NCBI GenBank assembly: GCA_947625015.1
Contig: CANQMR010000009.1
Location: forward strand, 1-64,000
Direction: 5' to 3'
Length of the DNA: 64,000 nt
Source of the DNA: an uncultured Lachnospiraceae bacterium
Lineage (GTDB): Bacteria; Bacillota; Clostridia; Lachnospirales; Lachnospiraceae
Shown here: positions 10,605 through 39,976 of the stretch, piece after piece
How the letters are laid out: each line of letters begins with the position of its first letter
Position numbering within the stretch: position 1 is the first letter of the stretch
Notes under the pieces: generated by a model
The model's database searches: none
What the model saw: the letters and a program-made list of their open reading frames with translations, nothing else
Told to the model about the DNA's origin: nothing
Position numbers and translations under genes: made by a program

Positions 10605-10738
10605 ATAGATTGAACCATTGCCATAAGCAGGTGTTTTTATGCCCGCCGGTACTTAGGTGGTGCTTTAGCGGCACCTTAGTACCGCTGCGTGGCATAACCA
10701 AGCGCAAGCGGCACCTGCGTTGGCAATGTTCAACCTAT
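10605..10738. repeat. 134-bp nested palindrome (element A) sharing its core with element B at 39155..39697
   Basis: ATAGATTGAACCATTGCCATAAGCAGGTG...ATGCCCGCCGGTACTTAGGTG / CACCTTAGTACCGCTGCGTGGCAT...CACCTGCGTTGGCAATGTTCAACCTAT, with unpaired CCAAGCGCAAGCGG only in the 3' arm. Confidence 0.88.
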
Positions 10739-35736: not shown

Positions 35737-37776
35737 ATGAGATCAGAGTGGAATGGTTTCAAAGGTGGTAACTGGGAGAAGTTTGTAGATGTTCGTAACT
35801 TTATTCAGAAGAACTACACCCCGTATGAAGGTGATGATTCTTTCTTATGCGGACCTACCCAGAACACCAAAGACTTATGGGCACAGGTTATGGACTTAAC
35901 CAAGAAGGAGAGAGAGGCCGGCGGTGTATTGGATATGGACACCAAGGTTGTATCTACTTTAACTTCCCATGGTCCCGGATATCTTGACAAGGATAAGGAA
36001 ACTATCGTAGGTTTCCAGACCGACAAGCCTTTCAAGAGAGGTATGAATGTATACGGCGGTTTGCGTATGGCAATGAAGGCCTGCGAGGACAACGGTTACA
36101 AGGTTGATGATGAGATTGTAGAGTTCTTCTCTAAGCACAGAAAGACACACAACGAAGGTGTGTTTGATGTATACGACCAGGAGATCAGAACCTGCCGTTC
36201 TAATCATATTATTACCGGCCTTCCTGACGCATACGGACGTGGACGTATCATCGGCGACTACAGAAGGGTTGCTCTTTACGGTACCGATTTCTTAATTAAG
36301 GATAAGCAGGAGCAGAAGGAATCCTTCGGCCGGGTTTACACAGATGATGTTATCCGCGGCAAGGAAGAGATTGCTGAGCAGATTAAAGCTCTTAAGGAGC
36401 TGACTCAGATGGCTGCTTCTTATGGCTTCGATATTTCACAGCCTGCTAAGAATGTACAGGAAGCAATTCAGTGGACCTATTTCGGATATTTAGGAGCCGT
36501 TAAGGAACAGAACGGCGCTGCAATGTCCCTTGGCCGTACAGCTACTTTCTTAGATGTATATGCTGAGAGAGACTTGGCAAATGGAACCTTTACCGAGGAG
36601 CAGATTCAGGAGTTCGTTGACCACTTTATAATGAAGTTAAGATGTGTGAAGTTTGCCCGTACACCAGAGTATAACCAGATTTTCGCCGGCGACCCGGTTT
36701 GGGTAACTGAGTCCTTAGGCGGTATGGGTACAGACGGACGTACTCTTGTTTCCAAGATGAGCTTCCGTTATCTGAACACACTGAACAACTTAGGTACTGC
36801 ACCGGAGCCGAACTTAACCGTTCTTTGGTCAACCAACCTGCCGATTGGCTGGAAGCAGTTCTGTGCTAAGATGTCTATCAAGTCTTCTTCCATTCAGTAT
36901 GAGAATGATGACTTAATGAGAAATGACCATGGTGATGATTATGCTATCGCTTGCTGCGTATCTTCCATGGTTGTCGGCAAGGAGATGCAGTTCTTCGGAG
37001 CTCGTGCTAACCTTGCTAAATGCTTACTTTACGCAATCAACGGTGGTGTTGATGAGGTTACCGGCGTACAGGTTGGTCCTAAGTATCGTCCTGTAGAGGG
37101 TGACTACCTTGACTTTGATGACGTTATGTCTAAGTACAACGACATGATGGATTGGTTAGCTAAGGTATATGTAAGCTCACTGAACATTATCCACTATATG
37201 CATGACAAGTATGCTTATGAGAGAATCCAGATGGCATTGCATGACAGAGATGTTAAGAGATACTTCGCAACCGGTGTTGCAGGACTTTCCGTTGTGGCTG
37301 ACTCTTTATCTGCTATCAAGTATGCTAAGGTTAAATGTATTCGTGATGAGAGAGGTATTGTTGTAAGCTATGAGACAGAAGGCGACTTCCCGAAATACGG
37401 CAACAACGATGACCGCGTAGATGAGCTGGCAGCTAATCTGGTAACAACCTTTATGAACAAGGTTCGTCAGCAGCATGTATATCGTAACGGTCTTCCTACA
37501 ACCTCTATCCTTACCATTACTTCTAATGTAACCTACGGTAAGGCTACCGGTGATACACCTTGCGGAAGAAAGAAAGGCGAGCCATTTGCTCCGGGTGCTA
37601 ACCCACTCCATAAGAGAGATACTCATGGTGCAGTCGCTTCTTTGGCTTCCGTTGCTAAGATTCCATTCAGGGATGCACAGGATGGTATTTCTAATACCTT
37701 CTCTATCATTCCGGGAGCGCTTGGCAAAGAAGATCAGGTATTTGCCGGGGATATTGACATTGATTTAAGCAAATAA
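35737..37776 (+). CDS. pflB: Pyruvate formate-lyase catalytic subunit lacking the C-terminal glycyl-radical domain (split PFL)
   Basis: AIACCVSSM Cys-Cys motif; PFL similarity ends at [20 protein letters not shown]; stop after a short linker; no RVSGYA motif. Confidence 0.93.
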
Positions 37777-37794
37777 TAACCTTGGAGGCTGATT

Positions 37795-38028
37795 ATGGCA
37801 GACGGAAACCAGGTAGATGACATTGTAACAATGTTAGACAATATGATGGGTAACGGCCATGGACACGTCAATGTGTCTGTGGACGAATCCATAGAAGCCG
37901 GTCAGAAGACCACTGACACAATGGGCTGTACCGATTGTGCCAAAGGGGATTTGGCTTGCAGCGTACCAACCCTGATGGAAGGGATGGACGAAGAACTCGA
38001 ACAATTAACACAAAAAGAGAAACATTAA
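37795..38028 (+). CDS. Small Cys-containing protein of the split-PFL operon, partial paralogue of the glycyl-radical subunit
   Basis: RBS TTGGAGG; NQVDDIVTMLDNMMGNGHGHVNVSV aligns with [25 protein letters not shown] of the next ORF (12/25 identical by hand); then GCTDCAKGDLACS. Confidence 0.75.
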   Translation: MADGNQVDDIVTMLDNMMGNGHGHVNVSVDESIEAGQKTTDTMGCTDCAKGDLACSVPTLMEGMDEELEQLTQKEKH

Positions 38029-38066
38029 CAAGCAATATCATATAATATTATAAGGAGGGATTTATC

Positions 38067-38309
38067 ATGGCAACGAATTCACAACAGGTTGATAACTTAG
38101 TAAATATGTTAGATGGTTATGTATCAGAGGGTGGCTATCATCTGAATGTTAACGTATTGAATCGTGACACATTGTTAGACGCCCAGAAACATCCGGAGAA
38201 CTATCCGCAGTTGACAATCCGCGTTTCCGGTTATGCAGTTAACTTCATTAAACTGACACCGGAGCAGCAGCAGGATGTTATCTCAAGAACATTTCATGAG
38301 ACAATGTAA
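38067..38309 (+). CDS. Stand-alone glycyl-radical subunit of split PFL (GrcA/YfiD-like domain)
   Basis: [67 protein letters not shown] corresponds to the PFL C-terminus including the RVSGYA radical loop. Confidence 0.95.
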
Positions 38310-38386: not shown

Positions 38387-39151
38387 ATGGTTGGACACAT
38401 TCATTCCATTGAAACCTGCGGCACTGTAGACGGGCCAGGCATGCGTTTTGTCGTATTTTTCAAGGGCTGCCCCATGCGCTGCCTTTACTGCCACAATCCG
38501 GACACATGGGACCCGGCTGGCGGGGAAGAACACACAGCAGAAGATTTGTTAGAACAATTTGAATCCCTGCGGGATTTTTACGCCAACGGCGGCATTACCG
38601 CTACCGGCGGGGAGCCTCTGATGCAAATAGACTTTCTCATTGAATTATTTGAAAAGGCCAAGGCGAAAGGAATCCATACCTGCCTTGACACCTCCGGCGT
38701 TACCTTTCATCGGGACAACCCTGAACTGCTGGCCAAGTTTGACCGGCTGATGAATTGCACAGATTTGGTTATGCTGGATATTAAGCACATCAATCCGGAG
38801 GAGCACTTAAAGCTTTGCAAGCAGCCCAACGACAACATTCTGGATTTTGCCAAATACATTGACGAGCATGAGGTAGACATCTGGATTCGCCATGTCATCG
38901 TCAAAGACATAACCTTAGTTGACAGCTATTTGGACGAGCTTGGCTACTTCATCGGGGGCCTTAAGCACCTAAAAGCATTGGACTGCCTGCCCTACCACAG
39001 CATGGGCGTAGTCAAATACAAAAACTTAGGCATTGATTACCCCTTAAAGGGCATGAAGCCGCTGGCTAAGGAAGATGCTATCCACGCAAGAGAAATTATT
39101 CTGGCAGCCGCCAAACGCCGCCGCCAGGACGATGCAGCCAAACAATCCTAA
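38387..39151 (+). CDS. pflA: PFL-activating enzyme (radical SAM)
   Basis: CPMRCLYCHNPDTWDP CxxxCxxC radical SAM motif; GGITATGGEPLMQ. Confidence 0.96.
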   Translation: MVGHIHSIETCGTVDGPGMRFVVFFKGCPMRCLYCHNPDTWDPAGGEEHTAEDLLEQFESLRDFYANGGITATGGEPLMQIDFLIELFEKAKAKGIHTCLDTSGVTFHRDNPELLAKFDRLMNCTDLVMLDIKHINPEEHLKLCKQPNDNILDFAKYIDEHEVDIWIRHVIVKDITLVDSYLDELGYFIGGLKHLKALDCLPYHSMGVVKYKNLGIDYPLKGMKPLAKEDAIHAREIILAAAKRRRQDDAAKQS

Positions 39152-39154
39152 CCG

Positions 39155-39697
39155 CCCATATTCCCTTCTCGCCCTTACACACCATGCCCCCGCCCGGATA
39201 ATTTTTATTCTCCGCCTTTTATTCATTTAGCATACCACCGCAGGTAATCCTATCCTATTTTCCTGCACTGGTTTCGGTTTTAAGAAATCCTGCCGCCGGG
39301 CTGTCCTGCATGTTTGATTGCATGTGCTCACGAAGAACTCGCACCGGGGCCGGGTGACTGGGAAACATCTACAGCCCCTTTAAGAACGCCGGTACTTGCG
39401 GAGGACGCCAAAGATTATCTTATTATATAACCTATATGTCCTCCGCTTAGTACCGCTGCGTTCTTAACAGAGCGCAAGCGTGGCTGTGAGATGTTTGCCC
39501 AGCACCCAGCTCCGGTGCTCAGACACTTCTCCGCACATGCATCATGCAGGACAGCCCGGCGGCGGATTTCTAAAAAACCGCGTGTCAGGAAAAGTAGGAT
39601 AGGATTATCCCGCGGCGGTATGCCACGAAGTTATAGGCGGAGGATAAAAATTATCCGGGCGGGGAATCGGGAGAAATTGCGGGGAAGGGAATATGGG
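39155..39697. repeat. 543-bp long nested palindrome (element B)
   Basis: 5' arm CCCATATTCCCTTC...GCCCGGATAATTTTTATTCTCCGCC...GCCGCCGGGCTGTCCTGCATG...TTTAAGAACGCCGGTACTT pairs with the reverse complement of ...TTAGTACCGCTGCGTTCTTAACAG(AGCGCAAGCG)...CATGCAGGACAGCCCGGCGGC...GGCGGAGGATAAAAATTATCCGGGC...GGGAATATGGG. Confidence 0.93.
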
Positions 39698-39805
39698 AAG
39701 AATTTGTGATAAAAAACTTGCTATCTGAGCTAAGATGTTTTAAAATAGGGTTATTGAGGTATTTTCAATAATAACAATGTATATTTCTTAAAGGAGGGTA
39801 ATGAT

Positions 39806-39976
39806 ATGGCATTTGTAATTGGCGACAACTGTGTATCCTGCGGCGCATGCGCTGGCGCTTGTCCGGTTGGTGCAATCGCAGAAGGCGACGGCAAATTTGA
39901 GATTGATGCAAACAACTGCATCTCTTGTGGTTCCTGTGCCGGAACTTGTCCTGCCGGAGCAATTTCTGAGGAATAA
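39806..39976 (+). CDS. 2[4Fe-4S] ferredoxin, 56 aa (missed by the 60-aa ORF cutoff)
   Basis: Translation MAFVIGDNCVSCGACAGACPVGAIAEGDGKFEIDANNCISCGSCAGTCPAGAISEE with two CxxCxxCxxxCP motifs; RBS AAAGGAGGG. Confidence 0.96.
   Translation: MAFVIGDNCVSCGACAGACPVGAIAEGDGKFEIDANNCISCGSCAGTCPAGAISEE

Follow-up and report, generated by a model that had tools for sequence, protein, structure and literature searches.

The long hairpin between pflA and its ferredoxin gene in this uncultured Lachnospiraceae bacterium is one old copy of a dispersed, gene-less palindrome family and not a one-off structure. The reading that we favour, with a probability of roughly 78%, is that the family represents a non-autonomous, palindromic, MITE-like element of the Lachnospiraceae, which carries no gene, is moved by resident DDE transposases and has arms templated on each other at the level of DNA. 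No previous description of the element was found in the open-access literature searched.

In the 64,000-nt stretch of DNA analysed here (the window), this 543-bp copy occupies positions 39155..39697 on the + strand, which corresponds to the consensus strand of the core. It begins 4 nt past the stop codon of pflA (pyruvate formate-lyase activating enzyme; 38387..39151, +) and ends ahead of the probable ferredoxin promoter (TTGCTA-N-TTAAAAT; 39718..39747, +), which is also kept in relatives without the element, the 2[4Fe-4S] ferredoxin gene itself following at 39806..39976 (+). The left (5'), pyrimidine-rich arm (39155..39363, +) pairs with the right (3'), purine-rich arm (39492..39697, +), and between them lies a conserved apical core (39364..39491, +) scoring 71.7 bits against our core covariance model R1. 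A sequence-only reading had placed a near-perfect hairpin here; its coordinates were right, and the arm pairs that it quoted were found at 82-100% complementarity, the repeat search recovering 39188-39217/39635-39664 (97%), 39275-39312/39543-39580 (82%), 39245-39261/39591-39607 (94%) and 39155-39168/39684-39697 (100%). Folding bore out the long stem, since the 571-nt stretch round the hairpin folds end to end as RNA with a minimum free energy of -336.3 kcal/mol, compared with a shuffle mean of -176.4 (z -25; 0/100 shuffles as good). Thus the size and the long self-complementary structure stand, whereas the perfection was overstated, the arms being 77% identical to each other over 276 alignment columns, a shortfall due to old mutations and to internal loops that are asymmetric and conserved. 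As the same reading held, the segment 39155-39697 contains no plausible gene and is not a terminator: there is no T run 3' of 39697, and among 49 copies we found no strand or convergent-gene bias. Rfam 15 gave no match at gathering score over the 64-kb window and none at E <= 1 over 39100-39760.

Other features of the window and of this locus may be recorded here. A second, short-armed member of the same palindrome family lies at 10621..10721 (+; 64 bits). The pyruvate formate-lyase at 35737-38309 is split within its glycyl-radical domain into a 679-aa PFL with PF01228 profile positions 1-50, a 77-aa protein with no Pfam match, and an 80-aa protein with PF01228 positions 50-106 including the RVSGYAVNF motif. 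In the congener G022 (locus L083) the pflA-ferredoxin gap holds different repeats and a 60-bp hairpin.

The most constant part of the structure is its apex. In the window copy the conserved 5' and 3' core strands, CGCCGGTACTT (39387..39397, +) and GTACCGCTGCG (39450..39460, +), both with invariant alignment columns, enclose a variable apical stem-loop, or tip (39398..39449, +), and are followed by the mini-hairpin GCGCAAGC (39472..39479, +; family form GCGMAAGC), which forms a bulge on the 3' side only (pairs 116-123 and 117-122). In an alignment of 59 cores, CGCCGG, GTACCG, TGCG and AGCGNNAGCG of the mini-hairpin are invariant, and the consensus fold contains 26 pairs, of which 16 covary by two-sided changes; conserved asymmetric loops and the GCGMAAGC mini-hairpin characterise the apex. 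Among those listed, most of the 119 measurable apex-pattern matches sit at a palindrome's apex, and the arms beyond the core measure about 20-120 nt. Such a conserved interior core counts against a simple MITE, where none is expected; arm templating may depend on its structure, it may serve as a site for a protein, or it may be a relic. Long palindromes without a recognised core made up 4/33 and 6/27 of those at the loci fetched, which had been chosen around cores, and about five of these coreless palindromes have, as judged by eye, another apex in common, with a small side hairpin. A second family of long palindromes, of the same architecture and another sequence, occurs in E. tayi and CE91-St56 (L249:50-360; L258:6281-6547; L262:7984-8245; L273:14265-14524; L275:2218-2476), with an apex made of a CTGACACACTTGAT stem plus a side hairpin (for example GCCCGAGGGC) and with ends resembling ACTCAAACTTCGCAGGAG.

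A search of the genome and its relatives for the arms, which the sequence-only reading had proposed, revealed a family. The 543-bp query gave 50 matches in its own genome (G000), comprising the window copy, 28 other long copies and fragments, some of these rows being the palindrome matched to its own other strand. The 28 further copies are about 340-480 bp long and 78-88% identical (410-nt core), giving about 30 long copies in all, and the sister species G023 has about 25, most of them at the same sites. Other congeners have only about 40 bp of the query in common, within hairpins bearing other arms. A 19-base apex pattern occurs in at least 118 stretches of a database of genome contigs, nearly all from Lachnospiraceae among the matches listed; two matches outside the family (L179, Proteobacteria; L208, Arsukibacterium) lack a hairpin and were discounted as chance. 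With the core covariance model, all 26 congeners examined gave 1-122 scored matches per genome, only part of the candidates being scored, and a class-wide sample gave matches in 4/157 genomes, all Lachnospiraceae. The apex of about 100 nt is also present in Eisenbergiella, Blautia, Mediterraneibacter and Roseburia; no genome sampled outside the Lachnospiraceae has the core, and no relatives of the element were found in viral contigs, phages or plasmids. The copies sit mostly between genes. An autonomous version with a gene in the tip was considered for cores lacking a nearby 5' half and rejected, these cases being explained by masked sequence, contig ends, chance matches, variant 5' halves and longer, gene-less tips. 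Some flanking genes, for example rho, a malic enzyme and an ECF-type gene, are swapped between copies of the element in the two sister species (L012, L016, L061, L065), which makes the repeats look like points of rearrangement; another possible cause is chimeric binning.

The window copy is neither unique nor young. G023 has the same hairpin at the same pflA site with 97% identity, the differences at paired positions being one-sided, while in more distant congeners pflA is present, in several cases with ferredoxin close by, and the element is lacking there. The insertion is therefore older than the split between G000 and G023 and not genus-wide, so the suggestion of recent formation does not hold: the copy predates the divergence of the sister species and its arms have decayed. 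The same comparison of the orthologous gap, which had been advised from sequence, bears on whether the hairpin is real, given that an assembler turning at an inverted repeat can make a false second arm. Some G023 contigs do terminate at hairpins, and one (L045) is mirrored up to its end; the window copy, however, is internal to a 98-kb contig, occurs in both assemblies, which differ by substitutions in its arms, and has arms which differ from each other often enough for reads to place them. CE91-St56, titled a complete genome, moreover holds dozens of such hairpins. An artefact at this locus is accordingly barely conceivable, and fold-back was dropped as a cause except for copies at contig ends such as L045.

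Evidence that whole hairpins move comes from their ends and flanks. In CE91-St56 the copies end in terminal inverted repeats GGGTGYAGATAAAA, and direct repeats, mostly of 9 bp, flank 10/21 of them, 0.1 being expected from shuffled partners; no transposase with ends GGGTGYAGATAAAA was found among the PF01609 hits. In Clostridia B91 the terminal inverted repeats are CAATGTCATTAAGTTAAG (156 exact sites) with duplications of 9-10 bp, and resident ISs (L288, L289, L293, L295), which are about 1.7 kb long and encode PF01609 transposases, have the same or nearly the same ends. The transposase of L295 exceeds the NCBIfam cut-off for the IS4 family, and L288 and L293 have on their flanks exact 10-bp direct repeats, such as are published for IS4 (PMC2266710). 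An apparent 1575-bp IS in B91 proved to be two hairpins around a dehydrogenase-like gene. Of the copies in genomes other than CE91-St56, 11/87 have target duplications, 0.3 being expected; in E. tayi, whose copies often end in GTTACTRTTCAYGG, the figure is 1/28. Movement by DDE transposases is thus well supported in the B91 lineage, by the ends common to elements and IS4-family ISs and by the duplications, and supported in CE91-St56 by the duplications; for the lineage of the window we infer it. There, a direct repeat of at least 8 nt was found at 0/26 copies in G000 (0.3 expected by chance), possibly because these copies are old and have lost their duplications by mutation, and the mobility of this group rests on its dispersal and on empty sites. 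The family as a whole is short, non-coding and dispersed in many copies, as MITEs are, with terminal inverted repeats (CE91-St56, B91), duplications of constant length (CE91-St56, B91) and ends common to an autonomous resident IS (B91); as the window copy and its 25 relatives have no such duplication, we call it MITE-like and not a proven MITE.

Two other accounts of the arms can be set against these data. The arms could be inverted copies of the local flanks, made in place around the core by template switching, with no transposition of arms. In E. tayi the arms are indeed locus-specific, and at L157 one arm extends 18 nt into the end of a folK-like gene. Against this, two E. tayi copies are absent at syntenic CE91-St56 loci and the empty sites do not contain the arm sequence; at L171 GC-rich arms lie within AT-rich flanks; and in CE91-St56 and B91 many copies have one common arm sequence with duplications just outside it, which already contradicts the account for arms of that kind. 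On the strength of the empty sites and the contrast at L171 we rejected arms copied from the target, and we consider this origin highly improbable for the family. Alternatively, the core could be a very small mobile element which inserts in the loops of existing palindromes (other MITEs or REP-like sequences), the arms belonging to the targets. Such insertion would accord with arms that are unrelated between lineages around a core common to all, and CE91-St56 has coreless palindromes of 60-91 bp with the same ends. These, however, retain inner parts of the arms and look like tip deletions, coreless long palindromes are rare (in loci that were, as noted, chosen around cores), and the target duplications flank the complete hairpin, outside its arms. 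This account, too, has only a slender chance of being correct.

If the hairpin moves as a whole, one question then is how its arms remain complementary while diverging. Within single copies in E. tayi, about 96% of the aligned arm positions (2392/2493) are paired, and yet the arms are only loosely alike between copies. In the young burst of CE91-St56, 71 substitutions from the consensus are found in both arms and 28 in one, cells common to related copies being counted more than once. Paralogs in the window's own genome show 328 compensated pairs and 416 one-sided changes, compared with 7 and 43 in ten ortholog pairs, which indicates that most of the doubling occurs in the making or active life of copies and little afterwards. 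That most substitutions in young copies hit both arms explains why the two arms match within copies though arms and ends differ by lineage. In addition, the element is inverted relative to its flanks in 6/16 orthologous pairs with both flanks matched (own/sister: L005/L047, L008/L053, L010/L059, L023/L062, L027/L063 and L028/L068), and these opposite orientations suggest frequent inversion of the palindrome interior. According to published work, template switching in place can both match the arms and invert the interior (PMC8794818, PMC8604942).

Paired changes are also the expected mark of selection on RNA, and the transcript could fold into a functional RNA or dsRNA acting as a regulator, mRNA stabiliser or terminator. 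The strong covariation of the core (16/26 pairs) and its conserved asymmetric loops speak for such a function. The arm mismatches do not: on the core strand they comprise 349 G-T and 503 A-C, counts which include sister genomes and so are not independent, and hence show no G-U excess; the modest excess of A-C could be accounted for by weak selection acting on the opposite strand or by biased mutation. Insertions in the two genomes examined have the core on the same strand as the gene in 11 cases and on the opposite strand in 12. With neither a G-U excess nor a strand preference, selection on RNA is not indicated; the lack of convergent-gene bias noted above also speaks against it. Furthermore, arm sequence is not kept between copies, Rfam offers no match, and target duplications and empty sites point elsewhere. 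The mismatch pattern and unbiased insertion strand led us to reject a terminator or other strand-specific role, the long dsRNA proposed from sequence gains no support from the mismatches or from the insertions in these two genomes, and a structured RNA in general we regard as improbable.

In the mechanism that we favour, then, the element would consist of a conserved apical core of about 100 nt (the junction with the GCGMAAGC mini-hairpin) and two complementary arms ending in terminal inverted repeats, which resident DDE transposases would recognise in order to move it. While a copy is active and near-perfect, DNA copying between the arms would enter each change in both, possibly through template switching, for which a hairpin or a cruciform could be the site, or as a step of movement itself; the doubled substitutions lead us to infer such templating, whether at movement or in place. 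Changes templated into both arms would let arms and terminal repeats diverge in step at the two ends around a core that remains conserved, and concerted change of the two ends presumably arises in this way. Old copies, such as that of the window, would decay, mostly by one-sided mutations.

MITE-like elements of this kind are already known; it is the apex-conserved design that is unusual. ERIC, YPAL, Correia and RUP elements are about 100-170 bp long and are recognised by conserved sequence, including the ends. Here the apex is conserved and the arms and terminal repeats vary between lineages and often between copies, and the hairpins reach 300-640 bp. Otherwise ERIC/IRU/RU-1, YPAL/RU-2, Correia and RUP are likewise gene-less, dispersed, mostly intergenic and self-complementary, and where their movement is known it occurs in trans by resident transposases (PMC2229807). 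The IS4Sa subgroup of the IS4 family has ends CA------T and duplications of 8-10 bp (PMC2266710). B91 elements resemble it in their CA------T ends, 9-10 bp duplications and ends common to resident IS4-family ISs. Unlike IS4Sa and the IS231-like MICs/MITEs, the family has CA------T ends in the B91 lineage only, CE91-St56 having GGGTGYAGATAAAA and E. tayi often GTTACTRTTCAYGG, and we know of no IS4 passenger with such a core. REP/REPIN sequences with their RAYTs are also intergenic palindromic repeats, many per genome, with a conserved hairpin motif, but REPs measure 20-40 bp and bear a GTAG or CGTC tag (PMC3733652), whereas the present element shows no such tag, has target duplications and is ten times larger; size and duplications argue against identity. 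Finally, doubled arm changes, as seen here, and interior inversion, as suggested here, are the published signatures of quasipalindrome template switching (PMC8794818, PMC8604942), a process described for short arms in yeast genes and RNA genes, whereas here it would concern a mobile family with arms of 80-240 nt.

These comparisons bear on several wider issues. Strong covariation is present here with no sign of RNA selection, which calls for caution in taking it as proof of a functional RNA, and the family provides natural replicates for studying what keeps the arms of a palindrome complementary at the level of DNA. Long palindromes are generally held to be unstable in bacteria, and SbcD is a subunit of a nuclease that cuts palindromic DNA. 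Nevertheless, common gut bacteria carry dozens to hundreds of palindromes of 140-640 bp. SbcD scores above its family cut-off in E. tayi, CE91-St56 and B91, G000 and G023 giving sub-threshold hits only, so that tolerance is not explained simply by loss of SbcD in the carriers, and how bacteria tolerate such palindromes is still of interest. A conserved apex combined with variable ends does not fit the way in which MITEs are usually described. A further reading, which we think rather unlikely but worth keeping in view, is that the apical core is the persistent unit, making one arm template the other whenever a new copy arises. Each change in the terminal repeats would then show at both ends simultaneously, which would allow the element to switch over time between unrelated host transposases. 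If that were true, it would amount to a class of genomic parasite defined by the apex of a hairpin, with interchangeable arms and ends.
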